From Bryoerythrophyllum caledonicum (lineage: Eukaryota > Streptophyta > Bryopsida > Pottiales > Pottiaceae): a stretch of 64,000 bases of DNA. This document shows, piece by piece, positions 119-62,360 of the stretch (position 1 is its first letter; each line of letters opens with the position of its first letter). Below the pieces are notes generated by a model, which did not search any database, was not told where the DNA came from, and worked only from the letters and a program-made list of their open reading frames with translations. The translations under genes and the position numbers were made by a program. Where the stretch lies: assembly GCA_963971425.1 (NCBI GenBank), contig OZ020514.1:12777218-12841217 (forward strand). Reading direction: 5' to 3'.

Positions 119-410
119 GGTTAGTTGTCCACATTCAACTCGAGTCGAGCTGAGTATGAATATGTTCGGATCCATCATTCTTGTTTACATGTTGAACTGA
201 TATAATGCTTACTCTTCAGATGCAAATGTTAGCTAGTAAGATAGATTTATTCATATTGTTGACATACATGTTCAGCTCGGCTCGAGCTGAACATGCTTCG
301 AAGTGCATGCAGTTTAGTTTCCGGAATCTGACATGTTGTTATGAAATAGCAGGAATTCATCGAAGAAGTTCAGCTTTGGTTTGCATGTATCGATGTAAAC
401 TCGAATATAA
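119..410 (+). repeat. gene P intron with two TE-P/TE4-type palindromes
   Basis: Intron of gene P. It holds two members of the palindrome family: one at about 137-158 (CAACTCGAGTCGAGCTGAG) and one at about 267-296. The second reads CATGTTCAGCTCG, then GC, then TCGAGCTGAACATG, and is almost perfectly self-complementary over 29 bases. The outer arm CATG/CATG differs from the outer arms in TE4, but the core is the same. The acceptor is placed near 410, where homology with gene M resumes (GKKKKSDALDLHNEEKII). Confidence 0.65.
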
Positions 411-23294: not shown

Positions 23295-23630
23295 TAAGTG
23301 CTTCTGAATTTTTCTTATTTTGCTGTTGTTGTCTATCATATCATTCAATCGTCAAATCAGCTCGACTCGAGTTGAACATGCGGCGTGGTTTCACGTGCTG
23401 CATGATTAGCTCAACTCAAGTTGAACATGCAGCGTCGATTCAAGTGTTGCATGATTAGCTCAACTCGAGTTGAACATGAAGCGTGGATTCAAGTGTTGCA
23501 TGATTAGCTCGACTCGAGTTGAACATGTAGCGTGGAATCAAGTGTTGCATGTTCAGCTCGACTCGAGCTCATTCTGCTAGGTCGTTGCCTTGTCATTGAG
23601 TTCTTAGATCTGTCTAAAATGTCTGCAGCT
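23295..23630 (+). repeat. gene P intron with five tandem palindromes (48-50 bp period)
   Basis: CAGCTCGACTCGAGTTGAAC and close variants start near 23358, 23409, 23457, 23505 and 23553, each followed by ATGCNGCGTNGATTCAAGTG-like spacer. All have the TE-P/TE4 core with outer arms drifting toward GTTCAACTC/GAGTTGAAC. Tandem growth of one palindrome-containing unit explains the array. Confidence 0.8.
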
Positions 23631-31127: not shown

Positions 31128-31158
31128 AACACCATATTCGTTATAATGGGAGATTTCC
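31128..31158 (+). repeat. TE4 left terminal inverted repeat
   Basis: AACACCATATTCGTTATA followed by ATGGGAGATTTCC. It is inverted to 50015-50045, and matches the end of TE-P at 62330-62360 with about 27 of 31 bases. Confidence 0.85.
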
Positions 31159-31419
31159 ATGATTTTGAAGATATATGATCTTTAAAGTATCAATATATAT
31201 AGACAATTGTAGGTGCAAAGCATATCAACAATGCACCAAGAATACTATATACCATTACATGGATGGACCAAATTAGCCGAATGTCCCAAAAAATGGTAAC
31301 GCTAAAAGAAGCATGTACCATTATTCCAAGCTTTATTTAAAACTTCATGAAAAAAAATCACAAACAACACTCATTCACCCCGAGGCAAAACACAATCGTC
31401 ATATCACTAATCAAATGGT

Positions 31420-31746
31420 CTACGGAGTTCCACCATAAGCTTCTATACGCGTCTTCAAAAAAGCCCTCTGACGTTGCCTTGTCCATGTTGCGCCATTCTC
31501 TTGCATTAATGGACTCTCTAGAAGACGCTGCAAACCCCGCCTACGCACCTCGTCACTGTTTGATTTGGGCAGCGAGTGCTGGCGGGTGGGGAAAGGAGAG
31601 CATTTGCCTCTAGTAGCATCCCCAGACAAAGTTCGAGGACGGAGACATTTACCGAATGGTCCCTGCACAATAGGCGCCACACACAATCCAAAGAAATACA
31701 CTTTAGGTCGAATACTGCTACACAACACACATGAAAATTTAATCAT
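31420..31746 (-). pseudogene. gene M, last coding exon (basic C-terminus)
   Basis: On the reverse strand, FPTRQHSLPKSNSDEVRRRG then LQRLLESPLMQENG aligns with the gene P end at 61670-61921 (PSRRHSLPQPKSLERRKGWS, then TVLANLF). It is basic and proline/serine-rich. A frame change separates the upstream half. Together with the following TIR this marks the 3' end of the accessory gene about 300 bases inside the element. Confidence 0.5.
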
Positions 31747-31896
31747 TGAGATCCATCCTAGCGCACATTAGGTCGGATGGAGCTAAAATGCAGAAGGAAA
31801 GATCCACAGAGCACATTTAACCCCCAACAAAAAAACAAGCTTAAATGAACCAAAACTACATTAGTGCAATGTAGCTCAACAACAAACCAAAATTGT

Positions 31897-32295
31897 CTAG
31901 GCCAAAACATCGCAATAGTGCAATAAATTGGAGGTCATCATAACACGCACCGCAAGCGAGCGTTGGGAAGTACCATCCCTTAAACCGTCGTAGAGAATAC
32001 GCTTTGCTGGAGTACAATTATCCGGATTTAAAGGCGGGGACCCAGGAACTAAACGAGGCCACTGCGGCGAAGGCGAGTTGTTCCTATCATGAATTGGCTC
32101 CCGCGCAATAGGGCTTTCAACAACTCCGTCGTCCACTGCCATGGTCGAATAATCCATGGTTGATTGCGTAGTTGCAGCAGAGTGCAACAAAAGCCCTTTA
32201 CTCCGAAGAGAAAGGACGAACTCCTCTGGCCCTAGCAAGGAATCCACGGACGCCCGACAGTCACAGTCGTGTAGAAATTTCAACCACAACGACAC
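31897..32295 (-). pseudogene. gene M, exon after the phosphatase-like domain
   Basis: The frame RASVDSLLGPEEFVLSLRSK, GLLLHSAATTQSTMDYS, then PSPQWPRLVPGSPPLNP and CTPAKRILYDGL matches gene P 26486-26799. The shared SVDS, LSLRSKG, ST-MDYS and AR/KR blocks show real coding constraint between copies. The function is not recognised. No stop interrupts it. Confidence 0.55.
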
Positions 32296-32537
32296 TCACA
32301 TACCCTAGAACAATAGATGAAAATTCCAATCATTCAAAATAGCATGACATTCCATCAGCAGTAGATATTCAATTTCCACAACAAACAAAGCGGTGAAACA
32401 TCTCAGTTTCATTTATAAAAAAATATATAGACAGAAAATGGTCCAACAAAATTTACAACATCGAGCTGCAGTCAATCGATACAGTTTAGCTCTATGCGAC
32501 CTAAAGTGTAAAAGGAATCTAAGCGTTCCCAACGGCA

Positions 32538-33362
32538 TTAAGAGCGGAGATTTTGAAACGCTTGGATTGCGTTCCAGATACTCGCAGACTGACCACACGT
32601 CTTCTGATCATTATAAAACATCTCCCGACTAGAGGGATGTTCGGCCCGGTACTGCGCTAGACCACCCGGAAACTGATGAAGGTCAGAGAGATATGGCAGC
32701 AATTCCTCCAACAATACAGAGTCATCTCTCGCGCCAACATGTTTGTGCGACCATGAAGGAAGAAGAAGGACGTTCTCCGGCAAATTGAGCATGTGCTTAA
32801 TCGGGTTGTCGTCAATGACAAGCGTATTTGCCGGAGAATACTCACGACCCAACCTATTGAAGAGATGGCTCGATAAGGTCTTCAAGAAGATGTCCTTCTG
32901 AGTGCTAGATTCCTTCATGTAGAATGTTTTGCTACCGACTCTACGCTCGGGAACCCTATCGCAACTCTCCTGACCAAAGATCCTGAGAGGGTACGAAGAA
33001 CTATGCTGAAAAAGATAATTACATATCTGACGCGTTGTGGATTCCATCATCGAACTCCAGATCGTGATGGTGGCAATCTTAGACAACTTTGTAAGGAACT
33101 CAGCACAACCAAGGCGCACTCGAACTAGTTTAGGGCCTACTTCGGCCGGCAGCAAAGCCGAGTGAATGGACGGGATAGAGTCCCTGGATCCTCTGGCCTG
33201 CCACGACGGCTCACACGTGCATAGAATCCCATTGAGGTCCAGCACAATGTTCAACCACCTGCCCTCGATATTTGAATGGACTCTAGGTATTTCTTCTAGA
33301 TTATTGGCATCACTTATTGATGCCTCGCCGACCTGGTTCGCAAATGCCAGGAGAACGACCAA
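32538..33362 (-). pseudogene. gene M, FCP1/NIF-like phosphatase domain
   Basis: The longest clean frame of this domain (about 270 codons). It has WLNIVLDLNGILCTCEP (motif I, DLNG), ITIWSSM (motif II region), KDIFLKTL, and TLVIDDNPIKHMLNLPENVL (motif IV region, DDNP intact), then EELLPYLSDLHQF. The FCP1/TIM50 fold normally shows DLDxTL; the second Asp is Asn here, as in plant DLNG-type relatives, so activity is uncertain. Gene P has the same domain with a frameshift. Presence in both copies indicates that the domain is an inherited part of the transposon, probably taken long ago from a host gene. Confidence 0.75.
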
Positions 33363-33474
33363 TATTTCTACAAATTCATTAACAACGACGATTCAACAAT
33401 ACGTAGAACGAAAGAGATAAATGGGGGGAGGAGTGATGGGGGAATGAGTGGAGTTCAAAAAGAGTTAGAAGAAT

Positions 33475-33740
33475 ACCTCGAGAACTTCATCGTCCTGCAG
33501 CATTTCGTCTCGGGCACCCATCGATCCCAACGAACCCTGCATGCTGTCAAGGGGCCTGGAGTGCCCGACATCCATTTGGGGGCACGGTTCTGGGACAAGA
33601 AGAGGTGGCTCAGAATCATGATTGATCTCGTCTACGAGCACGGCTGAAACTTGGACGACCTCTTCTATGACTGGGACTGCAGTTTGGACGACCTCTTCTA
33701 TGACTGGTTGAGCAATCGCGTCATCACCGAAACTTAGATC
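33475..33740 (-). pseudogene. gene M, acidic linker exon with internal duplication
   Basis: Reverse-strand frame: PVIEEVVQTAVPVIEEVVQ, a 10-residue repeat in tandem, then VSAVLVDEINHDSEPPLL, MQGSLGSMGARDEMLQDDEV. It is acidic and lies between the coiled-coil exon and the phosphatase-like exon. A palindrome at about 33825 (GTTTAGCTCGAGTCGAGCTG) sits in the intron just upstream. Function unknown. Confidence 0.45.
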
Positions 33741-33945
33741 TGGAAAAATTCAACAACTTCACACCTATCAGCGGATGGGCACAGAGGACACGGATACAAG
33801 TCACAGTGGTTAGATGTCAAGCAGTTTAGCTCGAGTCGAGCTGAAGTGCTCGCCGTGCACTGTAATATTAACAAAAAAAATACTGGAGTACAAAATTGGA
33901 CATTTACAAAATGTTCTGCCTCTATACACTCGCAACTACGTTACA

Positions 33946-34925
33946 CTAACCTGACGATGACCTGGGGACATCTGCGATAGATTCGTCCCGATCGGGCGAC
34001 TTCGGAGGGGAAGAGGGGCGGGCCGACGCGGAAGGGAGAACATGAAGCAATTGAGCCCCACTGGAGACGGGGGAGGTAACCGACGGATATGGAAGCTGCA
34101 AATCGCAAGACGGACTCGCAGACCCGTCGTACGGTGATGCGGGAGGCTGGGGGATTGCAGCAATAACTACGGGCGGTGATGTGGCGGAAGTAGGCAAATT
34201 AGCCGACATGAATCTCTACATCATGCGCATCATCTCGGCATGCCTCTGATCTTGGTCTCTCTTCATTTCATCGTCACGCCTCCGCTGCATATCCCTGAGC
34301 TCCTCGTCGCGCTCCGCAAGTCGCTGCTCCATCAACCTCATCCGGGTGGCCTCCTCTTCGAGCTTCTTCTCAAGGGAGATTAACCTGTTGTCATCCTGAG
34401 CGCTGCTCGTGATAGCCAAAGGAGAGCGCGTGCTTGCGCTAGCAACCTTCCTCTTCTTGGCCGCGGGACGAGCGGTTGAAGCGCCCAAGGTGGGAGCTGA
34501 ATGAAGCCTGTCGAAAATCTCCAACGAATCCAACTCCGGGAAGTCGAGTCGTTGTCGCGAGGAAGCGATTGTGTCTCCTGCTTCAGATTGAGATGCACTC
34601 TGAAACTCAGGCAGAGTAGCGTCAACGAAGTCGTCCTGGGACTCATTATCCGGAGTGACGGTGCTCGAGATCGGGCACGCAACCACAGCGCTCGGCTCCG
34701 CATCTTCCTCCTCATCGCCGAGGTCAATAATGGCTTTCCCCTTCCCCTTTCCAACGGCATCTCCAAGCTCGGGAAAGATCTCCGAGTTGACGTGATACGC
34801 AGAAATATCGAAATCGGCCCGATCCAACGTCAAGCCGACCTCGAAGGCGTCGTCAAGATCCTGCTCATCGGTGTCGTGAGAAATGCAGAATGCTTCCAGG
34901 TCGAGCATCTGCACACCAATGGATT
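33946..34925 (-). pseudogene. gene M, acidic and coiled-coil exon
   Basis: The frame starts near MLDLEAFCISHDTDEQDLDD and has LTLDRADFDISAYHVN (as in gene P), an acidic DLGDEEEDAEPSA block and a basic ARPAAKKRKVAS (possible nuclear signal). A strong heptad helix follows (SLEKKLEEEATRMRLMEQRL, then AERDEELRDMQRRRDDEMKR). A single stop at 34216-34218 separates this from a Pro/Ser-rich tail (SPPVVIAAIPQPPASP). A coiled coil suggests the protein forms oligomers. The exon is flanked by palindrome-bearing introns. Confidence 0.65.
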
Positions 34926-34934
34926 GAACAAGAT

Positions 34935-35185
34935 TCAATTTAGGTCGAGTCGAGCTAAACTCAATACAAACAATTGCTGGTACAAAAACTTGGCTATTAT
35001 AACTTCAAATGATACGAACGAAGTTAATGACATCCATAAAATCATACAAGAAAAAGCCGACACTTTAGGTCGAGTCGAGCTAAAGTTTCACCAAACAGCA
35101 TAGGCATGACCTCATTGAAACTATGCACGAGTCAGAAAGGGAACAAACAGTTTAGCTCGACTCGACCTAAACTGCAGGGATGCTT
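34935..35185 (-). repeat. gene M intron with three palindromes
   Basis: Copies at about 34941 (TTTAGGTCGAGTCGAGCTAA), 35064 (TTTAGGTCGAGTCGAGCTAA, extended AAG) and 35152 (CAGTTTAGCTCGACTCGACC, ending TAAACTGC). The outer arms differ (AATT.., CACTTTAG.., GCAG/CTGC) but are mostly self-complementary. Confidence 0.75.
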
Positions 35186-35187
35186 AC

Positions 35188-36550
35188 CACACTTGCTGTC
35201 AGTAATTTCGTCCGGCCAAACAGCTGGACAACAGAATCCCCCCTCTTGCAGAACAGCTCCAGGAGCTTGACGAAGAACTCCATCCTCATCTCGTTCATGT
35301 TCATGGAGTACGCCAACTCGTTGTACTTGCGCAGCTTCGTGTACAACACATGCTCTGGAGCTGCGTAGATCTTCTTTACGGCTGGGATCACCGTAAGCTC
35401 CTTGAAGAGAAGGAGGAGCCGAACCGGGTCTAGAGCGTTGTTGGTCTTCGGCGCGAATCCTCCGAGGCGCTCGTTCTCGGAGGGAAGATACTTCGACTGC
35501 AGCACATCGTATGCATGGCACAACGACGAGCCCTCAGCAAACGCTGTCACTTGAAGGTGTGACTGCTCGTTGCCGCAAATGAAGAGCCAGGCTGGAAGAT
35601 CGGTGAGGGGAGGCTGCCCTTTCGATGCGAACATCGTCATGAACTCGTCGAAGAAGGGCCTCTCCAACGACGACGACGACGTCCCAGAGAACCCGGGGAT
35701 GTTCCGGAAGTCGATGATGCCGAGCTTCACATTGCAACCCAGGTTGCGCCATGAATCCGAAGGCCACGTCCCGAGCGAATTCGTTGCCGCCTTGTAAGAA
35801 CGGAAGTGCAGGGCTCCCACTGGTGAAACGAACCGCGACCGCACATCGATGAAGACTCTGAAGAACTCCTTCGCGTACGGAGAGAGATCTTCACATTTGC
35901 AGTTGCGAAACTGCGTCTGCCTCGAGTTGGCGTAGTACGAATCCGGTGGACCCCAATCCAAGAGGGCACGCTTGGAGGCCTTGCTGACGTTGTAGTTCTT
36001 CTTGAACGTCCGCCAGTTTGAACGTCTATACGCTCCAGTGCTGTTGAAGAAGGCCAGCTCTAGCCTGATCAGTTGAAGCTCCATCCGAGCGACCTCCTTC
36101 CTCTTCCTCCGATCCACCCAGTCCCGGGCTGTATAGCAATCCTCCAACGCAGAATTTGGGAGCTTGATGACCACCTTAGGGTAGGGCAGTTTCCGAGATG
36201 GCCCTGATCGATTGAGAATGTGCTTGCACATTTTCGCGTAATCAGCTTCGGTCATGTTGCCGAGAAACTTGAAGAACTCGCGCGTCAGCACCCCATCCTT
36301 CTCAGGAACCCAAGACTTCGCGTCCTTGAACTTTGCCAAGGGCGTCGAAGTTGAATCGACGTTGATGAGGTCGCCATGCGCCGCAGAAGAGATGACATCG
36401 GACCACAGCTCGAAGGTCTCATCTGTCGCGGTGATTATCTTCACCTCGTTCGTAATTGAAAGCTCCTTCGCCTTCCCGGCTTTCTTGAGCGTAGCCTGGC
36501 TCTTCGCAACGTCGATCATTGCGAAGCGCTCACGAACCGCGTTGAGAAAT
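35188..36550 (-). pseudogene. gene M, large central exon (unique region)
   Basis: An open frame of about 450 codons with no internal stop. It begins RFAMIDVAKSQATLKKAGKA and includes DGVLTREFFKFLGNM, CYTARDWVDRRKRKEVARME, SPYAKEFFRVFIDVRSRF, IIDFRNIPGFSGTSSSSLE, LPAWLFICGNEQSHLQVTAF and a final FCKRGDSVVQLFGRTKLLTA before a GTAAGC donor. It aligns end to end with gene P (411-1082 plus 22669-23294), which makes it a conserved part of the element. GDSVVQLFG-x-TK loosely recalls a SAM-binding motif as in gene B of TE1, but no convincing DPPY is visible. I would call the function unknown, possibly a much-diverged methyltransferase fold. Confidence 0.6.
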
Positions 36551-36779
36551 GGCCGGGCAGAACATAAAAGGGTCGTTTAAGTATACAATAAAGCAAGAAT
36601 ATTATCATGTCTAGTAGGGTCCAAACACTGCAAGTTAGCTCGAGTCGAGCTAACTTGCAACGCAAAAGCAGACAATGAAAGCGATTTCAATCAATACACA
36701 TGACTATACAGATACATCGCGAACTTGCACTTTAGCTCGAGTCGAGCTAAAGTGCATGACCTTGGTTAAGATATATTAC
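36551..36779 (-). repeat. gene M intron with two perfect palindromes
   Basis: At about 36628-36660, TGCAAGTTAGCTCG then A-G-T then CGAGCTAACTTGCA. At about 36728-36757, TGCACTTTAGCTCG then AGT then CGAGCTAAAGTGCA. The outer arms differ between the two (TGCAAG/CTTGCA versus TGCACTT/AAGTGCA), yet both are perfectly paired. Confidence 0.85.
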
Positions 36780-38229
36780 CTCAAACCTCTTGTCATTGGC
36801 CATTTCAACTGCAGTTCTCCGACCTGACTTGTGAGACCCGCGAACGCCTGTGGCAGAGTGCTTTGGCATTGGTCTCCCAGCTTAGATCCACAAAGCACGG
36901 GAGTCGAGGATATTTGTTGCCCACGTTGGCTTGAACTGGACCAAATGATTCACGCGATTATAATACGCGGAAATCTTCCTCAGCTTCTCCGGATCTTGCG
37001 TCCAGACAATGTAACATTGCCATGTTCGGAAGTGCCTTCTCATCACCTACGGAACGTTGCCGTTAATCATCTCCTTTGAGGCAGCAATGCTGTGCTGGCC
37101 GTTGATGATGTAGAAGTCGCAGTCGCTGAGCTCCTCCACAGTCGTCGGCATACTGTCGAGCTTCGGCATGACGCAGAGAGTCTGCTTCTGCGTCTTGTCT
37201 GGCATTTGGAGGTAGTAATGCTTCAACTCCTCCATGCCCCGAGGCTCGAACGCACGGATTGTCCACTCCGGCGGTGCATTATGCAACCTCATCACGTCAA
37301 GCTCGATCTTCATCTCTCTGTCGCCTTTGAAAAAACAACTCTGACACTCCGTTCAGAATTTCTGGTAAATCTGTTGGACGTTGTTGTAGTCGATTGTCTC
37401 TCCGTATCCGAGCGCCTTGGGGAGCTCCGAGAGTACAGAGGCCATCGAATTGGCTTGCTCCTCCTCCGATACGAGCTTAGACTTCTTTCTTGAAGAGGTC
37501 TCCGGCTTCTTGGCAGCTGACCGCTTCTTGACGGGGGAAGCAGACAGCGTGTTGCGCAGAGTGCTTCGACTTGTTCTTGCACTTGGAGTTCTAACCGGTA
37601 CCGACGCCTGACTCATGTCTTGGCTACCGGTCACGGCCCCCGAAACCGTTGAAAGTTCTATCGGCCGTCTTGCCGCAATATTCTTCGCCTTATCTAGAGC
37701 GGCAAAGGTACTCATTCTAGAGAGAATGACGCGCAGTTTATTAGCTGTAGCCTTTGCTTTCAGCGGCTGTCCGCTACTAGTCTCCCATTTCTTAAGGGAG
37801 ATCTCATGCTCGACCTGAGTCACTATTTCCTCAAATTTGGATGACCTAAGAGAATCGACCAAATCCAAGATACAGAAGGGAGATGAACTATTGTTTACTA
37901 TTATAGTAAAGAAATACAGATCTAAGGACTCAGAGGTCGTCTCACACGACAACTTAACGTGATCGTTATCTTCTTGGACTACATCAGTAACTTTGTTCTT
38001 GAAGTCGATGTGCTGGGGATCGACGATAGCACCAACGAAGGTCTGACCAAACACTAAATGATCCGTATAGGTCGCCCACAGAAGCGTCCACTTCAGTGTC
38101 ATCGATGGGTCCTTGAGCTCCCAGCAGTCCAAGTGGTTGTTGTTGTCTCCATCGTCATCGTCAAGGTCGACAGGCTTTGGCTGGAAGAAGTGCTGCAGCT
38201 GCGACACCATCCTGTCCCTCTCAGATCTG
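36780..38229 (-). pseudogene. gene M, 5' exon with ParB-like domain
   Basis: One frame from the AG at about 38230 with three stops (37353, 37047 and 36884). The N-terminal part includes an acidic DLDDDDGDNNN, WTLLWATYTDHLVFGQ, and basic Ser-rich stretches (SARTSRSTLRNT, AAKKPETSSRKKSKL). The domain then reads KIELDVMRLHNAPPEWTIRA, TLCVMPKL, DFYIINGQHSIAASKEMI (37068-37118), FRTWQCYIVWTQDPEKLRKI and SAYYNRVNHL. The INGQHSIAAS block is the ParB/DGQHR signature (strand, G-x-H, Ala-rich helix). By analogy it may bind DNA, a nucleotide or another protein. No host role is known to me. Confidence 0.6.
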
Positions 38230-38380
38230 CACAAATACAAAATAGAGCAAAGATATTAGATTGCTCTATTGATCATCCGATTAGGACGGCGAGGTCACAC
38301 ATTAGCTCGACTCGAGCTAAAGTGTACCGTTATTCAAGTATGTGAGTAATACTCTGCAACAGAATTTAGACATTAAGGAC
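38230..38380 (-). repeat. intron with palindrome upstream of the ParB-like exon
   Basis: A palindrome at about 38300-38325 (CATTAGCTCGACTCGAGCTA, extended AAGTG) in the intron that ends in TTTGTGCAG at 38230 (reverse strand). Confidence 0.65.
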
Positions 38381-38384
38381 ATTC

Positions 38385-38892
38385 TCTTAGACGCTTACAA
38401 TCAACTCATGCCTGCTTCTCGTTCAACTCTCAAAAATGTGGGAGAGCTTCAGGTCACGCTCAAATCACTCACGAACCTCACTCTTAGAGGTTCTCAAGTG
38501 GTTTAAGCGGGACTGAAGCTCTTGCACGATTTATGAGAGGTGAACGGAAAGAAGACGTGAGTTGAGTTGGGAGACTACAATTACACCAATGAATCAATGT
38601 TGTATTCAAGTTTTAGCTTCATCTTTAGCTCGACTCGAGCTAAAGTGCTCATGCATGGAATGCATAGCTGAACAGTTCTGACACTTGCAGTATTCATTCA
38701 AACGACTTTCCTATACATTTCTATTCAAATCATGGCTACTTCTCGTTTAACTCTCAGAACTGCGAAAGAGCTTCAGTTCACGCTTAAATCACTCACGAAC
38801 CTCACTCTTTGAGGTTTTCAAGTGGTTGAAGTGTGACTGAAGTTCTTGCACGCATGTGAGAATTGAACGAGAAGTGGACATGAGTTGGGTCG
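38385..38892. repeat. two related long hairpins (about 180 bp each) flanking a palindrome
   Basis: Hairpin 1 (about 38405-38570): the arm CTCATGCCTGCTTCTCGTTC ... GAGAGCTTCAGGTCACGCTC pairs with GACTGAAGCTCTTGCACG ... GAACGGAAAGAAGACGTGAG. The loop is near the GAACCTC/GAGGTTC stem. Hairpin 2 (about 38735-38892) is the same structure with diverged sequence (CTTCTCGTTTAACTCTCAG ... GAATTGAACGAGAAG). Hairpin 1 also contains ACCTCACTCTTAGAGGTTCT as an inner stem. A CTTTAGCTCGACTCGAGCTA palindrome at 38620 lies between them. No coding frame. They look like small foldback or MITE-type elements, or possible hairpin RNA precursors. Confidence 0.65.
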
Positions 38893-38974
38893 TCGGTATC
38901 ATTGGATTACTATACATTTGGAATGTTTAAAGTCCGAATAGTGTTGTGTTCGGGTTGTTGTTTATGTTCATTCT

Positions 38975-39568
38975 CTCACACTTTAGCTCGATTCGAGGTA
39001 AAGTGTGTAGGCTATACAGAGAGGCCATGTTTTATTTTAAACCCAGTGTTTAAGAGTTGATATTAAGATTTTATTTCGAGTAGTCTCTTTTAGCGCAACC
39101 GAAGACGTACGAAGTCGTACATTTTATCTCGAGTCGAGCCATTATGTGACCTCGATAGTGTATTATTGTCCACAATTTAGCTCGAGTCGAGCTAAGTTGG
39201 GACTTTTCTGTGCACATTTGGCACACTTACGCTCTTGTTGCGCCAAAGTGCAACTTTGTGTTTTCTTCATTGATCAAACTTTACCTCGAGTCGAGTTAAA
39301 GTGTGGCCAAATGTTCACAGAATAGGTCCACTTTAGCTCGACTCGAGCTAAAGTGTGGCCAAAGATGCACAGAAAAGGTCCACTTTAGCTCGACTCGAGC
39401 TAAAGTGTGGCCATATGTGCACAGAAAAGGCCCACTTTAGCTCGAGTCGAGCAAATGTGTGGATATTAGTGCACAGTGGGGGCACACTTTAGCTCGACTC
39501 GAGCTAAAGTGTGTTCAATAGTGCAAATATGGATTTCCCACATTAGCTCGACTCGAGCTAAAGTGTGT
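38975..39568. repeat. array of about nine TTTAGCTCGA-S-TCGAGCTAAA palindromes
   Basis: Copies near 38981, 39119, 39175, 39280, 39332, 39382, 39435, 39487 and 39540. The last five are spaced about 52 bases apart with related spacers (GTGTGGCCAAATGTGCACAG, AAAAGGTC). Outer arms are CAC/GTG. The array lies upstream of gene M, in the long spacer between the two divergent genes of TE4. Confidence 0.85.
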
Positions 39569-40264
39569 TCAATGAATAGCGTATTTATCGCAGATTGTAC
39601 AGATTAGTCATTCGTTATATGACACTGAAGGCGTAGGGTTCAGGGCTCCTGGGTGAGAGTATGGATTTTACCTTTCAGCCATTGCTTATGAACCTTAATC
39701 CCAGACAAATTCTGCTGGAACTAGACTTCCTGCAACAACAATTACAAACCCACACACAAAATCAATCAAAGTAGCACATGGAAACCAAAACATTGAAATC
39801 TTTCACATTGAAATCAACACTTTGAAATGGGCAAATTGAAATTCAGCACTTTGAAATAAACACATTGAATTCAGCACATTGAAACAATGACATTGAAACC
39901 AGCACATTCAAACTAGCAGAAAGTAGCACACTTACACCAGTTCAAACCAACACATTTAAGCTAGCACAGACCACCACAAATATCCACAAACCACCACAAA
40001 ACCACCACATTCAAATCTCCACATTCAAATCACCACATTCAAACCAGCACATTCAAACCAATATACACTCTCATCTACGTGCTGACACATACATAAAAAG
40101 CAATGCTACACATATATTATGTTTCAACACATCATATCAAAAGAAAAACTACACAAATATCAAAAGAAATGCAAGACTGAATGAGTGCACTTACCTTTAG
40201 AACTGAGAAATCCGACTGGAAAAGCTGGAAGTCTTGTTACTTGATCACGTCAATCCTCCATGCA
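39569..40264. other. TE4 spacer, CACATTGAAA-rich low-complexity region
   Basis: From about 39770 to 40060 short units such as CACATTGAAATC and CACATTCAAACCA recur imperfectly. A possible small exon of gene M (reverse strand, about 39671-39735, between TTGTTGCAG and GTAAAATCC) is too short to support. Confidence 0.4.
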
Positions 40265-40530
40265 CGGCCGTTTCAGACTCTACGTGCTCACAGAAACTCA
40301 CAGAAACTCACACACTCACAGAAACTCACACACGCTCATAAAAACTCACACACACTCACAGAAATTCACACACACTCACACAAACTCACACACGCTCACA
40401 GAAACTCACACACTCGCAGAAACTCACACAAACTCCCACAAACTCTCACAAACTCACACAAACTCACACAAACTCTCACAAACTCACACAAACTCTCACA
40501 AACTCACACAATCTCACGCAAACAGCCCTA
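40265..40530. repeat. CTCACACAAA / CTCACAGAAA minisatellite
   Basis: About 25 copies of a 10-base unit (AACTCACACA and variants with AG, GC or CT) in tandem. All long open frames here are products of the repeat and are not genes. Confidence 0.85.
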
Positions 40531-43500
40531 AACTCTGGCGCTGCACTGTACACGAAGTCACACAACAACAAATCGCACGTCCTACAAACCCTATGCGCAT
40601 GAAACCCTAGACTCCAGTAAATTGCACACGGAAGCCTATACGCAGCGCTACAGTGTACACAAACATAACAATCCCTGTAGATTACGAAACTAACACAAAC
40701 CAACGCATCAACTCACAAAACGCAGAAAACAACAACGCCTGGAAGTACACGGAAAACCTGGACTGCAACAAAAAGAATAGAAAAATGGCTCGCGCCACGA
40801 CTTCGTGGGGAAGTTTCTGGGCCACCTATAGCCGTGAGGGTCGAAACCCTGTGGCCGTTTGGTGGTGCCGAGATACCCTCGGGATACCCTTTGCGATATT
40901 GGGGTGTAACTCCCGGGTATTATGCCGGATGCTCCACAAATCTTTCACCTTCGTTACTGATACCCGGACTTTTAAGAAGCCAATTTAATTTTACCAGAAT
41001 AAGTTCAAGATATTACGCGCCTGTAGTATTTGTGTACTCGTAAATTTCCAACACAATTTTTCGGAGCCACTAACACTACAATTTTGGATATTTTGGGGCA
41101 ACAAACAGGTAGCAAAAGGAAAGTTATTATTTCCAATTTCTTTCGTATGATCTCAATTAAAACTTCTAAATTGACATTTTCTCAATAATACACAAATTTA
41201 AATTGGACGAAAGTGAACGTTTATAGTATTTAGTGTTTAGTTTTCTTTCATGGTTTTAGTGGATCAGCTGGCTTTCACTTCACTCGATTTCAATTTTTGC
41301 ATTACACAAGGAGTAAATTCATTACCATCGATATATATAAGTTCCTCCTACAACAATTATTAGGTGAAGCACAGTTAAGAGAGTTTTAAAGCTACGATTT
41401 TAAGATTCTATTACTTTGAATTCAAGTTTTGCTTTTTTATGAGTTTGATATTATTTTCTATGACAATCGAATAGACAATAAGTATGTTAAGACCACATCT
41501 TGCAATTGTATAATTATAAAATAAATGCCAGTGGACACTTTAGCTCTAATGGAGCTAAAGTGTGCGTATTAGCTTTATAGTTTCCTACATTTACTGATGG
41601 TGTACACTTTAGCTCTAATAGAGCTAAATTGTGAATTTTTTCTGTACTTTTCACTTCATTTTGCTTTTACTGTAACGGTACAAATACAGTTGTTAGAGCA
41701 TCTCCCCCCCTGACGAAGAATTTTCCACGCCAGCGGGAAGGTGCCCAAGTTTGAGATGAAGTGGGGGGGTCACCCTTTTCCCCCCGCACCGTCCCCGAAT
41801 TGGCCACTATGAGGGAACGCCAACGCCCAGCACTAACTCTATAGTAGGCTAATTTTTTTGGAGGTTTTTATTGATTTCTTTTAATTCCCTCGTGTAATTT
41901 CATGCTTGAACACATGCTCTCGGGGAATTTTGGTGTCCCCTGTACTTTTTGTAAATTTACTATTTAGAGGAACCGGCGCCGCCACTGCAGTGGGCCGGTA
42001 CACCGGCCTAGGCCTCACGGAGTCGGCTTTACCGTGTTTATTCTTGCATTCCGGTCACTCGGTCCCGGTGGAGATTATCTTTTTCTAGTACACTATTTGT
42101 CAACAAGTTGGCAACTAATTTTAGCCACCATTGTCCTGAATATTATCCCTCATTCGTTCACCTACTACAGTTCATTTCGTAATAGCCCTCTATCAAAACT
42201 CTTCCCTAGCACACAATTTTGATACTTGATAAATAGTATAAGCTCAAAGTCTTCAGCCTACCGGTCGCCATGCATTCATTCTTCGTCTCATCTTCAACCT
42301 CAATTTCTTATCCTCTTATCCACAACTATTCTCATTCCCATCTCTTGCATTTTCTTTACATTATTTAATATTATCTAATGAATATTTAATGTGTAATCAA
42401 ATATTTAGCCAATAACTAATGACTTTGTAATGATTTTTTATAGGATAATTCATGTATATTGGTATATCTGTAACTTTTATGCACAATTAAAGAATATTGG
42501 AATTTTATTTATTGAATGTTGGAAGTTTTAAAAGTATATTTATGATAGTTTATTAATATTTATATATTTAATGATTATTTAAAGAGTATTTAATGCACTG
42601 TTAATGAATAGTTAATGAATAGTGCATAAATTTCTAATGTAAAATTAATGTGTATTTGAATATTTAATGAGTATTTAATTAATATTTACTGAATATGTAA
42701 TGCACATTGAATGCGTATTATGTGATGGATATCTAATGAGTATTTTACTTGTATTCCTATATTTATTGTATGTTTAAGTGTTTTCCTTTTCCAATATTCC
42801 ATTCTTTTCTCATTTTCGTTTCCAGAAGAATGTTCTTATATTTCCAGTCTTCTACTTGTAGTTTCATTTTCCCTCCATATTTTACATTCTACTTTGTCCA
42901 AATTTTTATATTTTCCTTTTGCTCCATACCTACGTCCGCTTATTTCCAAGCTCTTTCTTGCAAATTCTTCCTTTTCTACATGCACTCAACCCTTCTTTAC
43001 TATGATGCTCAAGATGTAATCAAATCATGATTAAGGTTCCCTACAGTAATTGTCGACAAGTAAAAACTTTATGTTCTACTATTTACTAGGATTGACATTT
43101 AGTGTAGTAGTTGGCATTTAGTGTAATATAGTTTTGTCACTACACTTATTGTAAATTTTACAATTACTGTGTGCATTCCTATTTAGTTTCCACTTCTCTA
43201 GAAGCCATCTTCTGTATACTGGAGCTACATAGTGCATTTTTGCTTTCTAATCCACTCCATTTAGTGATGGTGCACAATTTAGCTCTAGGAGAGCTAATCT
43301 GTGCATATTATCTTTTTAGTTCACTGCACCTAGTGATGAGGCACAGGTTAGCACGAGTGGAGCTAAAGTGTGTGCGCACACTCCTTTTAGTTCACTGCAT
43401 GTAGTGATGGTGCACACCTCTGCTAAAAACCGATCTGATGTATGTGCAATGTGTATTTCCACTTCTACAAACAATCATTTTGAACTCCGTACTTCTCTTT

Positions 43501-45067
43501 ATGGATAAGTATTTCACAAGTGGAATAGTAATCTTTTGAATTTTAAAAGGATTTTCATAATATGTGGATCTAAATCTCCAATAGTAATATTAAAAAACAA
43601 AAAAATATGACGATCCCCTAGTTTTTAGTGGATATGAAGTCTAAGTATTCTTGGTACCCTAAATCAATAATATGTGACAATGTGAAAAATAGATGAATGA
43701 ATATGTAATCTTATTTTTCACTAGAAAAATAACATATTTTTTCACAATACCATTTGTTCTAATATTACTTCTATGTATTGAAAATACCACATTCCATACT
43801 GTGTCATAGCAAAAGGTTTTTTAGGTTGCTCGATGTGCCGGCAATCGAGAAGTTTCTCTTTTGGCTCGCATAACTTTTAATGAAGACGTTCATTGAGAAA
43901 ATAAATTACTTATAAATATGCCTCTCATTGAGAAAATACATTACTTATAAATATGCCTCATTACTTTTATCATCCTTCTACAAGATTTTGAGAATTTTAA
44001 ATATAATTTGCGACCACTAGAACGTGCTCAAAAACTAATTATTCCATTTTTGCATGTATAAATAAATTCAAAATTACTTACATTACGAACATTAAATTAT
44101 GCCTAATGCACTAAGTGATACACTTTGTATTAGTTATATTTTATATTTTGATTATCTTTTTTTTGTCATGAGGAGGTCTCTCCGTTTCTTATTTAAATCT
44201 TTTAATATTGTTCCACTCTCTATGTTTTACAAATGACAAAGTCTTCAATTTCACGTCAAAACATGAAATAAATTGTATATGGTCAAGAATTCTTCCATCT
44301 TTTATGTCATGCTTAGATTGCCACACCCTAAAGTCATGAAAATACAATGTGAACTCAAATATAAGATATTTCAATCCAAAATTAATATTAGTTTGCGCAT
44401 ATTTCAAGTCTTTGAGTACCTCTAAGTGGAAAGTAACCAATTTCAATTGCAAATCCAGACCATGGGGACATTGGGATTCTTGCCAAAGAATGCACATTCT
44501 AAATTGATGACGAAATAGTTACATGACGCACATTTTTAAAACCCCAAAGAAATGATGTCCAAAGCATGTTTGAATACATTTGTTTTGGCTAAAAATACAC
44601 GTGCACATATAATATGTTTTTTTGTTTTTTAAAATGCTACTCGTCTGTTAAGGTCTTTGATTCAAACATAATAGATAAGTCCTATTTGGATTGTAATAAA
44701 AACTATTTCTAATCATCTCAATATCTTCTCTACATTTTCCTATACCTTAGTTGAATTGTCAATATCATGAATCTTCAAAGTATTATTATATTGAAATGAA
44801 TTGACATCAAAAGATATCACCTAAATCAAGGATTCTAAACCGTGAACCCTAAACCTGAACCTAAATTCCAAACCCTAAACCCGAAACTCCAAACCCTAAA
44901 CCCGAAACTACAAATCCTAAACCCTAACCCTAAACCTAAATCTAAACCTATCCAAAACCCTGAGCGTTACCCTAAAACCGTGTATATAACTCGCATGTGC
45001 GAGTATATTCGAGGTATTGACCTTTCCTTATTTTAGTCAACCGGGAAATAGTTGATTCAGTTTCCCG
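40531..45067. other. TE4 long AT-rich spacer, no gene seen
   Basis: Mostly AT-rich sequence without a supportable gene. It holds: weak palindromes at about 41535 and 41608 (CTTTAGCTCTAATGGAGCTA type), 43280 and 43350; a C-rich block at 41705-41830; degenerate TATTTAATGAATA units at about 42360-42740; and the CCCTAAA-like tract listed separately. Open frames here have no recognisable composition. Confidence 0.5.
44836..44965 (+). repeat. degenerate CCCTAAA (plant telomere-like) tract
   Basis: Contains AACCCTAAACC repeated with interruptions (AACCCTAAACCCGAAACTCC, then AAACCCTAACCCTAAACC). It resembles the Arabidopsis-type telomere repeat in plants. It is degenerate and interstitial, inside TE4, so it is not a chromosome end. 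Confidence 0.6.
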
Positions 45068-45562
45068 CTAAGATTTCGAATTTGCACTTTTTAGGGGCTG
45101 TGAAAAAGTCCCCCCCCGCCAATTCTGAAGTTTCATCCCGCCAATTCTGAAACGGTCGTGTGTCCGTGAGTGACCTCGCCGATACTCGAAAACTTTCTTC
45201 ATTTGTTTCCTTCTCACTTTGGTTGTTGTGCAAGGTTGTTGTGGAAAGGCTTGGAGGTAGTACGACTGTCGGAGCTTGAAGAGGGCAACACCTATAGGTT
45301 GCGCACGGTTGAGCAGGTAAGGCAACAACGTACCGGTTGTCTTCTTCATAAGGTACACAATGTATACTTCTTGGATTCTCCGTGCACAGTCTCTAGCAAT
45401 TAGGATGTGACAGTGTGTAGGGTTATTGCGCTGGTTCCAGCTGCTACTGTGATTTTGAAGCATCAGTGAGAGTTTCTTGACGACTAACGGAAAGATTTGG
45501 GTTGTAGTACACAGAGAGTCAGATTCATAGGCGGAAGAGTTTTCCCATACGAATCCCGACAA
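45068..45562 (-). CDS. possible small ORF (164 codons), unknown
   Basis: A reverse-strand frame with ATG near 45562 (MSGFVWENSSAYESD) and a basic C-terminal half (TTTKVRRKQMKKVFEYRRGH). No domain recognised and no second copy in the window to test it. It sits just upstream of the palindrome array that precedes the transposase. It may be chance; kept only because it is clearly longer than its neighbours. Confidence 0.2.
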   Translation of the reverse strand: MSGFVWENSSAYESDSLCTTTQIFPLVVKKLSLMLQNHSSSWNQRNNPTHCHILIARDCARRIQEVYIVYLMKKTTGTLLPYLLNRAQPIGVALFKLRQSYYLQAFPQQPCTTTKVRRKQMKKVFEYRRGHSRTHDRFRIGGMKLQNWRGGTFSQPLKSANSKS

Positions 45563-45583
45563 AGGCGCCGAGAATCACGGAAG

Positions 45584-45960
45584 GACAGTTTAGCTCGACT
45601 CGAGCTAATCTGTCTTACGTTCTTTCGAAGGACAGTTTAGCTCGACTCGAGCTAAACTGTCGGTCAATATCATTATTGTCAGTTTAGCTTGAGTCGAGCT
45701 AAACTGTCCTTCGAAAGAACGTAAGACAGTTTAGCTCGAGTCGAGCTAAACTGTCGATTCAATATTGTAGGACAGTGCAGCTCGTATGTAGCTAAACTGT
45801 CCTACTATAATGTTTCGACAATTTAGCTCGACTCGAGATAAACTGTCTTACCTTCTTCTGAAGGACAGTTTATCTCGACTCGAGCTAAACTGATCTACCC
45901 TATTTTCTATGCCTTTTTATCTCGACTCGGGATAAAATTACATTGCGTCATATACTCATT
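45584..45960. repeat. array of eight palindromes, 46-48 bp period, upstream of the TE4 transposase
   Basis: GACAGTTTAGCTCGAC then TCGAGCTAAACTGTC (31 bases, self-complementary) and variants start near 45584, 45631, 45678, 45724, 45770, 45817, 45862 and 45912. Outer arms GACAG/CTGTC are specific to this array. The spacer CTTACGTTCTTTCGAAGGAC (45614) is repeated in inverse at 45705, making a larger inverted repeat centred near 45670. The position in the divergent spacer, 290-670 bases before the transposase ATG, would suit a regulatory or transposase-binding array. Confidence 0.85.
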
Positions 45961-46250
45961 AAATCAGGTCGGATCGGGCCAAATTGTCACTGTCAAGGGT
46001 GAGATTATTTCATATTCGGATAAAAACTAATCGCATGAAATTTTCCACTTGTCATATAATACCGCATCAGTTTACCTCGAGTCGAGCTAAATTTGCCTAT
46101 TCTTCAATGTCAATTCACTTGTATCAAATGTATTTTCAAGCGCCAGACTTTACCTCTTCATATGCTTCTTCATTGATGTCTATTCCTACAAGATATTCAC
46201 CTATTATTATTTGGCAGGGTTATTTAATGTTTACCTCATTGGAATGCAGA

Positions 46251-49082
46251 ATGTCGTCTTCGGAGGACGACGATGTTCATATTGACGCTCCCGTGAACCC
46301 TGACCTTCCTGAGTTTGATGTTATTCCTCGCCGTCTCTGGGTCAGGATGACTGTTTCGCTTCACAATGGTTCGGGTGTTCGCGTTGCGGAGGGGTTGGTT
46401 CGCAATGTCCGGTCCAGTGCAATTCTAGGTTCCTCTGGTCCTCTCGGGGATTCGAATGTTGTAGTACAGGTGTCCAGTACTTTTGTTCTGGAGGAAGCTC
46501 CTGATGAGTGGAGGTACTCGTTTAAGTCCTGGCCTATTCAACAAGTTTTCTTAAACGGTGTGAGTCTCTTCCATCATTGCCTTAGGGACGTTTACAATGT
46601 CAGGTTGGTTGAGCGTAACAGACCTCTAGGTGGGAGCTCCGGTTCTTACGACAATTCCTCAAGGAATACACGTCCAACAGTGTCCAGGAATGCTGAATTT
46701 CTCATGACTCCTCTTTCCATTAACGCAGTTGCGAGCAATAGTTGTTGCAGTGAGAACTGTGTACAACACTATCCTAGAGATAAAATAAAAGTCCTTCGGA
46801 TGCGCTTGTACTGTGAGACCATTGTGCAGTTTAGAAATCATATCAAACTCGACGTTCATAGACAGTTTCATAGAAACTCTTCGGGTAGGAAGGTTGTGAC
46901 CCTAGAGGGTGTGGACGTTTGTGCCCATGCTTGGATGAAAATCATGGGTGTAAGTTCGAGTACTTTCTATCGGAATGCGAAGGACGCTGCCGCTGGTCAT
47001 GCGGCTCAACACCATGGGAATACCGGTTTGCGTAAGCCTAGAGGTCATACGGTTGTGGCTATTGCCGCTCTTGGAGCCATTCTCGATAGACATGCGGACC
47101 ACATGCCTCACAAGTCCCGTGTTCTCCCATCTGGTGAGAAGGCTGTGGCAAAGGTCCTTCCTGCAAGTTTTAAGTGGAAGGATCAGATACCGTTTCTTGA
47201 TGATCATCTCGCTGATTGTGGATTGCCGCCAATCTCAACCTCAAGCTTGAGTAAGATTCGGCGAGTGAGCTTTCCTGAGTACTATGCCAAGAGAGGTGGG
47301 GACAACTTCGCCCGTTGTTCTACATGTGACAAATACCAGGATCAGAAGAAGCTTACTCAACCTGGAACACAAGCTTCGCTGCTATGGCAAAAGAAGATGC
47401 AGGTTCACATCGATTCTGCCTTCTCACATCGGGACTTGTACTACCTGAACCGATTTTGATCAAAGTCGTCGCCCCAGGAGGTTCTTACCATCATGCATGA
47501 TAAGATGGATCACTCAAAGACCGCGTCCCCGGTTTTTTCACATAAAACAAAGCACTTAGATGGGCTTATGAAGTTGCCTCTTGCAATCACAGGCATGCTT
47601 GCCCATGGTCATGTAGACCAGCGTTACGCCCATTACGGCCTTGATTTATACTCCCATGATGCCAATTACACGGTTGGGTCGTTCGCAAAACTATTGCGTG
47701 ACTTGGAGGCGCCTCCGAAGTCATCGTCCCGGCAACTCTTTCCTGAATCTTGCTCTCATCCATTGTATGCGGCCGTGTTACGGGGTGCAGAGATGTGTTT
47801 GGATCCATTAGGGCAGATTCCTGATATCCCAGTTCCTGGGAGGCCTTTGCCACCAATATTGAACGTGCAAATGGACAATGCTGTTGGTGATAACAAAAAT
47901 AGATTTGTTTTCTGTTTTTGGTCTCTTCTTGTTGCAAAACGCATCTTCCGCGAGGTATATGTTAACTTTATGCTAGTTGGTCATACACATGATGATATAG
48001 ATGCATTATTTGGACGTTGGAGTATGACACTGAGGAAGGAGAGTTTTCCAACCATTCCTTTGCTCATGAAGTCGTTCATGAAAAATGAGAGTGTTCCCAC
48101 AATCCCGCATCTCATTTAAGAGGTTCCTGACTTTAAGAAGTTCATTGGGGATATGATTGCGGACGGTGATGAAGCTTTGCAGGGTCATACGAAGGCTCAT
48201 CAGTTCAAGTTTTATGTGGACTCAAGTGGTTGTCCGGTAATGAAGTATAAAATCCTTTGCCATGATGAGGATTGGCTTCCTAAGGGAGGAGAAGGTAGTG
48301 GCATCAAATTGTGGAAGGAGGATTCTGAATGGAGGTCTTTATGGCCTCGCGGAGAACCTGATGCATTGAAGCCTTCTACGATGCGGCATCTCCATGAGGT
48401 GGTGAAGGGACTTTCAGGATTCATCGATCACTGGGAGCAATCATCGCGGGAGTCTGTTGAAGCCCGTTCGCGTTTTGAGCCGCTATCGTATTATTGGCGC
48501 AATGTTAGAGATGCTCTGATACTTCCAATGGATACACCGATATCATTGGAAGACGGCTTTTGGCCAACGACGCGAATTGTCCATGCCATTGAAGATGAGT
48601 TCTCAGCGGAAGGTGAGGTTCGTGAGGAGTACCGTGAAGATGAGCATTTTGTTGGCCAGAGACGCGATCGTCCACCTCCTTCTTTTAGAGTTTGCCGTGA
48701 TCTTTTTGCTGGCTATTTTGTTGCATTGCGGCCTTGTGATGGGGACGAGCGCCCATTTTGGATTGCTCAAGCGATTTCAAATCCTAATTCTAATCCGGAT
48801 ATGCCAAACACCGTGCGTATCCAATTCTACCGCCCTATATCGCGCGATCGGGATGTTGTGAAGTTCTACAAAGATTGGGATACTGATACCAACCTTCGTT
48901 GGACAATTGAAAAGGGGATAGCCATAACGTGGGAGAGTACCGATTCAATCTTGACAGCATGGAAACCTAGGTCTTCAAAGAGGGATGGAGGTCATGTGCA
49001 AGATTCAACTACAAAAATTCCGAAGGGGCAAGTAGCGATTATCAAGGCCTCTTTAGAAGCACTTGCCAGGTCCGAGTCGTAG
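46251..49082 (+). pseudogene. TE4 transposase, DUF7869-type (DDE-like), two nonsense codons
   Basis: One frame of about 940 codons from ATG 46251 (MSSSEDDDVHIDAPVNPDLP) to TAG 49080, with TGA at 47457 and TAA at 48117. Domains in order: acidic N-terminus; a predicted helical DNA-binding part (AWMKIMGVSSSTFYRNAKDA); a zinc-binding CSTCDKYQ; then IMHDKMDHSKT, the first Asp; ILNVQMDNAVGDNKN, the second; and FMLVGHTHDDIDALFGRWS, the third acidic/His block. These three motifs are those of the DUF7869 family, found in many eukaryotic transposon proteins. A C-terminal region follows (YWRNVRDALILP, KGIAITWEST). Apart from the two stops the frame is intact, so inactivation is recent, or one stop is tolerated. 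A start at an upstream ATG is possible. Confidence 0.8.
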
Positions 49083-50014
49083 TGGACTTAGATCAATGGA
49101 CTTTCCTTTTCCAAGATTTTGGATTCTGATGCGTAATACTTCATGTAGTATGGTTAGATCCATTGGTGCTGAGATTATAGACATTTGTATGACTATTATA
49201 TGTGATGCCAATGATTGCTATGAAATATTCTCTCCATTATTTTTGCGTATCGGTGATATTTTGCAGTATGTTTTATTTTCTTTTTAAAATAACAATATGA
49301 TAAATTGCTTCTAATCTTGAAACCAATAATACCAGTAATTGTCTTCCTGGTGAATGATAGAAAGTAGATGTTGAGTCGCACTTTAGCTCTAGTGGAGCTA
49401 AAGTGTGAGCAAATCTTCTTATTTAGTTCATTGTACTTAGTAATGGTGCGCACTTTAGGTCAAGTGGAGCTAAAGTGTGTGGAATTGCCTTTTTGAGTTC
49501 ATTGCACCTCTAAGTGATGGGGACATTTTAGTTCGAAGAGAGGTAGTGTGTATGCAATTTTTTTCCCACTTCTGAGCACCATCATTTGAAACTCGTTATA
49601 TATTTTTAGCCAATTTGTATTCCACAAGGAGAATTGAAATTCTTTTAAATAAAAAAAAGCTCATCAAAATGTGTTTAGCTAATTCTCTTACAAGTGGATA
49701 TTTGTCCGTCATTTAGCTCACTTTTAGCTAAATTGGAGCATGGTGTTAATCCGGGTTAATAGGATCGAGTGTGAATATTTAGCTATTCATATTCAATGAA
49801 CACATGTGGTATAAAAGAAGTGTCGACTAATGTGTTCTTCTTTTCAATATTATAGTTAGAATCGTAATGCAATGTTATCCGTAGTTCTTATTTTTCTAGG
49901 GGTTTTTGTAGAAAAATGACCTCCCAATTTAATGGAAACTCATATCCCTCCATATTGTAGAAATTAGATGTGCACTTTAGCTCTTATGATCTACATGTGT
50001 TAATTTGGGAGTTG
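49083..50014. other. TE4 right subterminal region, no gene seen
   Basis: AT-rich. Weak palindromes at 49381 (CTTTAGCTCTAGTGGAGCTA), 49450 (CTTTAGGTCAAGTGGAGCTA) and 49975 (half palindrome). The 3' end of the transposase transcript would lie here, but no clear signal is seen. Confidence 0.45.
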
Positions 50015-50045
50015 CTAAATCTCCCAATATAACGAATATGGTGTT
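50015..50045 (-). repeat. TE4 right terminal inverted repeat
   Basis: CTAAATCTCCCAATATAACG then AATATGGTGTT; inverted to 31128-31158, followed by the CATC duplication at 50046-50049. Confidence 0.85.
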
Positions 50046-62329: not shown

Positions 62330-62360
62330 GGAAATCTCCCAATTTAATGAATATGGTGTT
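62330..62360 (-). repeat. TE-P right terminal inverted repeat
   Basis: GGAAATCTCCCAATTTAATG then AATATGGTGTT. It matches the two ends of TE4 with few changes (ATTTAAT for TTATAAC) and fixes the right border of the outer element. Confidence 0.75.

Follow-up and report, generated by a model that had tools for sequence, protein, structure and literature searches.

Arm-matched palindromes in the noncoding parts of a moss transposon superfamily: candidate cis sites for an element-encoded protein

Short palindromes with a related core recur by the dozen in a 64,000-nucleotide stretch of the genome of the moss Bryoerythrophyllum caledonicum (contig OZ020514.1, positions 12,777,218 to 12,841,217; hereafter the window), most of them within a single transposon copy at 31128..50045. 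Their outer arms differ from site to site as matched pairs, which raises the question of what keeps a palindrome self-complementary while its sequence changes. We propose, with a probability of about 0.6, that they are dyad sites of about 31 bp, read in cis and as duplex DNA by a putative element-encoded dimer, and that they serve mobility and probably expression of the element.

A palindrome family housed in one transposon superfamily

We count 46 palindromes in the window, accepting cores with up to two mismatches to AGCTCGA-S-TCGAGCT (S, G or C) together with three-mismatch cores in which at least 5 of 8 arm bases pair; three-mismatch cores with fewer paired arm bases are excluded from this count and from the 113-site set used below. 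Cores within two mismatches number 37, against 0–1 in each of 20 first-order Markov-random windows. The copy at 31128..50045 holds 34 of the 46, nine lie at 22.5–27.3 kb, two at the left edge, and one at 62084, where it adjoins another terminal repeat. An earlier reading of this DNA from its letters alone (the sequence-only reading) had reported more than 30 copies, which the scan bears out, and every one of the five arm pairs it named is found in the window. The core that it had called constant does vary, being exact in 14 of 46 sites and within one mismatch in 27. Its confinement of the palindromes to two segments, TE4 and TE-P, stands insofar as all of them belong to one transposon superfamily; diverged relatives of the element at 22.5–27.3 kb and at 1–300 carry them as well.

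The open reading frames (ORFs) of the element at 31128..50045, as drawn, cover 40% of its length and contain 0 of its 34 palindromes; their limits were partly set by hand (the 34.2-kb ORF was cut at 34915 and the DUF7869 gene begun at 46258), and a stop-to-stop reading places the sites at 34942, 45966 and 46074 inside open frames. From the gaps between ORFs, an intronic position of the palindromes would be expected.

The 437-Mb genome contains 6187 exact cores and no copy of a reversed control pattern. The centre base is G or C in 5819 of them (94%) and A or T in 368. On contig 1, each of the 50 exact cores that come first in the list (as far as 7.67 Mb) sits in a copy of this superfamily, as judged by homology or termini, the hosts being family 1 (that of the window element), family 2 or short elements; among these cores, an equal density outside the transposon family is therefore not what is seen. 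Viral contigs, searched with one 21-base palindrome pattern, gave no match.

Long copies of the superfamily measure 19–23 kb by the spacing of paired ends, encode the proteins M, ParB-like P and NIF, and carry tens of palindromes, in arrays that lie upstream of two genes, P and DUF7869, as well as between ORFs. Family 2, the TGCATATTC family (L007–L009, L017, L010), has termini identical to those of the window element, and its proteins are diverged from those of the window: 44% identity for M, 26–28, 54 and 70% for three pieces of P, 41–43% for NIF and 63% for DUF7869. In this family too, palindromes are found in the M–P interval, beyond M and upstream of P, and their arms, though different, are matched. 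A third family occupies the left window edge (continuing in L024) and 22.5–27.3 kb.

Termini within two mismatches, across all element sizes, number 2533 in the genome. Short elements of 163 or 237 bp (once 238) share the termini of the long element and are flanked by perfect 4-bp target duplications in 21 of 22 cases. With their small size, terminal inverted repeats, duplications, many copies, and termini of a longer coding element, these copies are miniature inverted-repeat transposable elements. A palindrome within two mismatches is present in 12 of 12 short elements drawn from a list of terminal repeats, two of which (L074, L075) also appeared in a palindrome-based list, and the miniature copies of both lengths that we examined have one palindrome each. 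Compared with nine reference loci, the 163-bp miniature matches only the termini, the right subterminal part and the palindrome region. One miniature element is nested in a large-element copy (L011:1033–1270) with ATAA on both sides.

Matched change of the arms

To ask whether the arms are more complementary than independent change would leave them, homologous copies were collapsed to 49 distinct sites and arms were shuffled among sites 2000 times. The loci for this analysis, as for the pair-type and core-profile analyses and the first miniature copies, were found via exact cores. Complementarity reaches 65–88% at offsets 8 and 11–15 from the centre against 36–49% in shuffled arms, and at each of these six offsets (8, 11, 12, 13, 14 and 15) the observed value lies above all 2000 shuffles. 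Offset 9 is nearly invariant, and offset 10 is not above the shuffles (511 of 2000 reach the observed value). From offset 16 outward complementarity is near background, so that the arms pair across eight bases beyond the core and pairing ends at about 31 bp in total. The sequence-only reading had held that self-complementarity is kept or regenerated as the arms change; the six offsets support it, arm complementarity there exceeding that of shuffled arms, contrary to the case of independent mutation that would have refuted the reading. When family 1 is taken by itself, covariation persists at offsets 11, 14 and 15, each of which shows several pair types.

For one arm pair of the site at 39179, all four base combinations were admitted in a search; its 53 exact matches have C.G in 40 cases, A.T in 13 and a mixed pair in none. 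Nor is a mixed pair present in 47 further one-mismatch places, a large share of which are other units of the array, among the 100 places listed of 177. Orthologous copies give a different picture, for the three largest comparisons contain 12, 27 and 22 single-sided arm changes against 0, 1 and 2 paired ones. Paired change thus occurs over long times, yet is not enforced at each step or position.

A candidate binding site, its rivals and its nearest parallels

Between orthologous copies, the core evolves more slowly than its surroundings. In comparisons that required gap-free alignment within 12 bases, core changes against flank changes number 5/406 versus 52/1536 between the window and L022+L023, 14/378 versus 116/1410 for L013+L014, 14/154 versus 108/584 for L011, 2/56 versus 62/215 for L005, and 5/56 versus 50/216 for L012. 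Arms change at rates between those of core and flank, except in L012, where they are nearly as fast as the flanks (10/48). Conservation within the core is specific to position: across the 113 sites, A at offset 7 deviates in 4 of 226 half-sites and T at offset 4 in 3, whereas G at offsets 6 and 2 deviates in 34 each, part of the variation at offsets 2–3 being of a kind that may reflect CpG decay. Because this profile does not track G-C pair strength, it suits base-specific recognition of a duplex better than stem stability.

We therefore favor a model in which a putative element-encoded homodimer binds the duplex core, each half-site reading about TTYANCTCNA on either side of the central G or C. 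The site would be required in cis for mobility, which could be why miniature copies keep one, and the clusters in long copies may promote or safeguard expression in the way of VANC motifs in VANDAL elements. While the arms of each family drift, symmetry would be retained through symmetric dimer contacts, through copying of one arm onto the other, or both; for the outer arms, symmetric protein contact and self-templated copying both fit. Among the options offered by the sequence-only reading, binding sites fit best, for a binder that is itself putative.

Several observations weigh against this proposal. Within a single element, several kinds of base pair are tolerated at offsets 11, 14 and 15 of family 1, so one sequence-reading dimer does not by itself explain the outer arms. 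At offset 12 of family 2, the 63 matches listed comprise 25 unpaired T.G and 38 T.A. The left ends of two long elements hold one doubtful site (L080) and none at all (the first ~266 bases of L081). Core changes confined to one side persist: of 23 close copies, all 23 have AGGT at 34942 and 14 have it at 35067. In miniature copies, several of which were first identified by an exact core, the core shows no greater conservation than the rest (5/150 versus 13/760 and 8/180 versus 87/1800), as expected for free decay after insertion, and retention of the palindrome in miniatures could reflect descent rather than need.

The same outer arms can be explained by mutation. A palindrome that folds or switches template during replication would have one arm copied onto the other and its centre inverted, leaving covariation as a by-product whether or not the core is functional; we regard this as a tentative alternative, possible but clearly less probable than a binding site. 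It accounts for the unmixed C.G and A.T pairs at 39179, although that switch may be a single inherited event, and for outer arms that tolerate several pair types. The spacers that separate palindromes are found either way round, within a copy as well as between copies. In the 47-bp array at 45.6 kb both orientations are present, one case being an exact reverse complement, and copies disagree in orientation. Each palindrome being its own inverted repeat, neighboring sites could mediate inversion, deletion and duplication. Both C and G are found at the centre of 3 of 5 sites among 23 close copies (L005 and L012 excluded), whereas such exchange is seen in 10 of 116 G/C columns of the flanks (Fisher p 0.009). 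In the two sets of miniature copies taken together, 2 of 352 arm cells have changed, compared with 100 of 2560 cells elsewhere. The miniatures also speak against such a mechanism, since for the 237-bp type the centre is G in all 60 exact matches to its site and in 12 of 12 aligned copies, and for the 163-bp type it is C in 10 of 10 aligned copies; centre inversion is consequently not a general property. General hypermutability of the centre, hinted at in orthologous copies and absent from miniature ones, was set aside and is kept only within this rival. Copying of arms is further at odds with the scarcity of paired relative to single changes among orthologous sites, and would leave the sharp limit at about 31 bp and the conservation of the core in need of another cause.

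Selection on a folded structure, either a DNA cruciform or an RNA hairpin with a stem of fixed length and free outer sequence, would likewise permit several pair types at offsets 11, 14 and 15, and the modal half-length of 15–16 (24 and 16 of 113 sites) agrees with it. Unoriented arm mismatches favor G.T over A.C (52 versus 32); by gene orientation the window gives 5 versus 4 in each case, from small numbers. We consider such selection distinctly unlikely. A hairpin would place the A and T that border the centre in its loop, yet these two bases are mostly retained, with 19 deviations in 226; A/T pairs also make up the most invariant positions, and pairing is often lacking at one position of family 2. 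For hairpin RNA in particular, one of the earlier suggestions, the small numbers in the window give no excess of G.U by gene strand, and conservation of the core is not ordered by the strength of the pairs. The other suggestion, a tiny hairpin element that inserts into palindromes, is very improbable. High copy number and similar units at different places are what a tiny mobile hairpin would produce, but we found no clean empty site in orthologous copies. With all sites counted, whether or not the alignment around them is gap-free, palindromes of the window that lie in range are occupied in 30 of 31 cases in L022+L023, in 29 of 31 in L013+L014, and in 4 of 4 in both L005 and L012; the missing sites (45639 in L022+L023; 39335 and 45639 in L013+L014) are all units of the 47- and 52-bp arrays. 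The unit flanked by target duplications is the whole miniature or the 19-kb element, although no systematic search was made for duplications around single palindromes.

One candidate binder is P, which the sequence-only reading had called ParB-like. Its sequence matches nothing in Pfam or PDB, ParB included, and the domain scan returned neither the Pfam ParB family nor a DNA-binding domain. The predicted model has a mean predicted local distance difference test score (pLDDT) of 40, rising to about 83 in parts of residues 281–419, and its top nine Foldseek matches in PDB are KorB, ParB and sulfiredoxin. As support for the label these fold matches are weak (E 0.024–0.12). By analogy with KorB at its OB sites, P alone or with M may load at the odd palindromes and coat the element from dozens of sites, keeping it open for expression and transposition, with the outer arms as a trace of each family's recognition code; such a partition-like or spreading-clamp system of a plant transposon seems to us rather doubtful. 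The predicted model of the DUF7869 protein is unusable (mean pLDDT 29). We do not retain that protein as a general palindrome binder: two of its best 150 matches (C1 2.81 and 3.21 Mb), the only two loci checked for this purpose, have no exact core within 300 kb.

The closest known architecture is that of the VANC-target motifs in Arabidopsis VANDAL elements, anti-silencing targets to which an element-encoded protein that removes DNA methylation binds. As described in PMC5735166 and PMC10398659, these motifs are specific to a transposable element (TE), lie in introns, intergenic and terminal noncoding parts, often form tandem repeats that gain or lose units, and differ between related TEs; the VANC21 motif has 9 bp and is arrayed in the same orientation. 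The moss palindromes likewise occupy noncoding parts of one TE lineage and form 47-, 49- and 52-bp arrays. They differ in being 31-bp palindromes with paired arms, in an element of another type with other proteins, and in being kept in miniatures. The likeness is one of mode and not of membership.

KorB and ParB proteins, with their operators on bacterial plasmids and chromosomes, offer a second parallel; such systems have a ParB N-terminal fold, CTP binding and contact with the palindrome by a helix-turn-helix. The KorB OB oligonucleotides given in PMC5577506 and PMC11790492 contain TTTAGCGGCTAAA, an odd palindrome with a central G. Like the sites of KorB (OB) and ParB (parS), the moss sites have the dyad form suited to a dimer, and the half-sites TTTAGC/GCTAAA with a central G also occur in family 1, where they stand 9 bp apart as against 1 bp in the OB sequences given there. 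The moss protein P weakly resembles KorB, ParB and sulfiredoxin in fold; its corresponding motif reads NGQHSVAAS, and a Pfam ParB match is lacking. We treat the resemblance of site to site as a lead, possibly due to chance. Bacterial repetitive extragenic palindromic (REP) sequences (PMC2817692, PMC3733652) share short length, high copy number and symmetry with the moss sites. They are tied to REP-associated tyrosine transposases (RAYTs), whereas the moss palindrome stands in the interior of an element bounded by terminal repeats.

A search of open-access literature for the core strings led only to a paper on Physcomitrella patens satellites (PMC6302065). Satellite Pp01_31 of that paper contains the identical 15-bp core, and in Pp08_44 this core spans the border between units. 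The arms of Pp01_31 are AATC/GATT, unlike those of the window palindromes; both repeats are described as satellites there, and the string "palindrom" is absent from the main text. The Pp01_31 unit has no match within three mismatches in the B. caledonicum genome. Palindromes of this kind within a transposon were not found in the open-access papers searched. Outside the VANDALs of Arabidopsis, the moss sites would be a second candidate, of different structure, for noncoding recognition sites that are TE-specific and change along with their element, and they offer thousands of natural replicates for studying symmetric change of palindromic sites. Through them, a Physcomitrella satellite core so far an orphan is also connected with a superfamily of transposons whose passengers, a NIF phosphatase and a ParB-like protein, are unusual.

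The host element and its palindromes in detail

The window copy (31128..50045, 18.9 kb) sits inside a CACTA-type element and is bordered by the DUF4216 and Transposase_21 parts of the latter. Superfamily termini read AACACCATATTC..., and those of the window copy are AACACCATATTCGTTATAATGGGAGATT on the left (31128..31155, + strand) and AATCTCCCAATATAACGAATATGGTGTT on the right (50018..50045, − strand), flanked by the 4-bp target duplication CATC at 31124–31127 and 50046–50049. The left border at 31128 is common to copies L005, L013+L014 and L022+L023, and homology to L011 stops at the right border, 50045. CACTA (CMC) elements have terminal repeats starting CACT(A/G), 3-bp target duplications and Transposase_21 inside. 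We rejected this assignment for the host transposon, which has an AACACC terminus and 4-bp duplications, the Transposase_21 ORFs (52.1–53.8 kb) lying outside 31128–50045. Mutator-like elements (MULEs), to which the VANDALs with their VANA and VANC genes belong, make target duplications longer than 4 bp; membership there was also rejected, on these 4-bp duplications and on the lack of a MULE domain in the ORFs scanned.

Four genes can be placed in the copy. An ORF for a NIF-like phosphatase (32541..33392, − strand; Pfam PF03031, E 6.8e-18) has relatives in other families; it accompanies the transposon in three families at about 41–43% identity and is for that reason not a recent capture. Gene M (35170..36576, − strand) encodes 469 aa, belongs to no Pfam family and has at least 91 scored matches in the genome. 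Gene P, with its weakly ParB/sulfiredoxin-like fold, is placed at 36750..38210 (− strand) by approximate borders transferred from L022, in which it is open over 487 aa; the window copy has a stop codon at 37047–37049. The DUF7869 gene (46251..49082, + strand; PF25273), a possible transposase, has two in-frame stops in the window copy; in L011 and L010 its frame is open over 841 and 757 aa, respectively. DUF7869 is very abundant genome-wide (the best 150 of 3605 first-look candidates were scored, many with open frames of ~1075 aa), and the abundant copies apparently sit in other elements. The open-access literature searched contained no mention of DUF7869 by name.

Within the element, a palindrome between the NIF and 34.2-kb ORFs (33820..33850) has centre G in the window and C in L022. 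Three lie downstream of M: at 34934..34964, where the left core starts with the AGGT noted above; at 35059..35089, with arms CACTTT/AAAGT; and at 35146..35176, with arms CAGTTT/AAACTG and a centre that varies among 23 close copies (14 with C, 9 with G). Two perfect 31-bp palindromes stand between P and M, one at 36629..36659 (TGCAAGTT/AACTTGCA), which has 509 genomic places within three mismatches, and one at 36726..36756 (TGCACTTT/AAAGTGCA). Upstream of P come three solitary palindromes (38296..39007; cores 38304, 38627, 38985) and an array of eight (39118..39567), mostly of 52-bp period, with the C.G/A.T pair switch at 39179. Four diverged palindromes follow at 41534..43372 (cores 41542, 41611, 43281, 43350). 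Upstream of the DUF7869 gene, ten palindromes with arms GACAGTTT/AAACTGTC occupy 45584..46096, mostly at 47-bp period; one has a four-mismatch core, and the array spacers lie in both orientations. Diverged palindromes near the right end (49377..49552) have cores at 49385 and 49457 and a four-mismatch site at 49530.

Among diverged relatives in the window, an array of five palindromes at 49-bp period (23351..23577) has arms near TGCATG(A/T)T(T/C)/GAACATG and directly follows the M exon of one relative, while two palindromes at 129..296, the second with CATGTTC/GAACATG arms, precede the M exon of another. We tried helical phasing as an account of the arrays and rejected it, as unit lengths of 34, 45, 47, 49 and 52 bp have no common phase. 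A further terminal-repeat end at 62349–62360 is part of a 42-bp inverted match to 31128–31169, with a two-mismatch palindrome at the 62084 site; no partner left end was identified for it in the window.

The element also contains repeats of other kinds. A 164-bp direct repeat upstream of P (38401–38564 and 38725–38887, 83% identical) has an inverted self-match in other copies. A 10-bp tandem repeat (about ACAAACTCAC) spans 40267–40572 and is adjoined by a 14-bp repeat (about AAACCAGCACATTC) at 39.75–40.09 kb, and an imperfect run of the telomere-like repeat CCCTAAA lies at 44840–44960.

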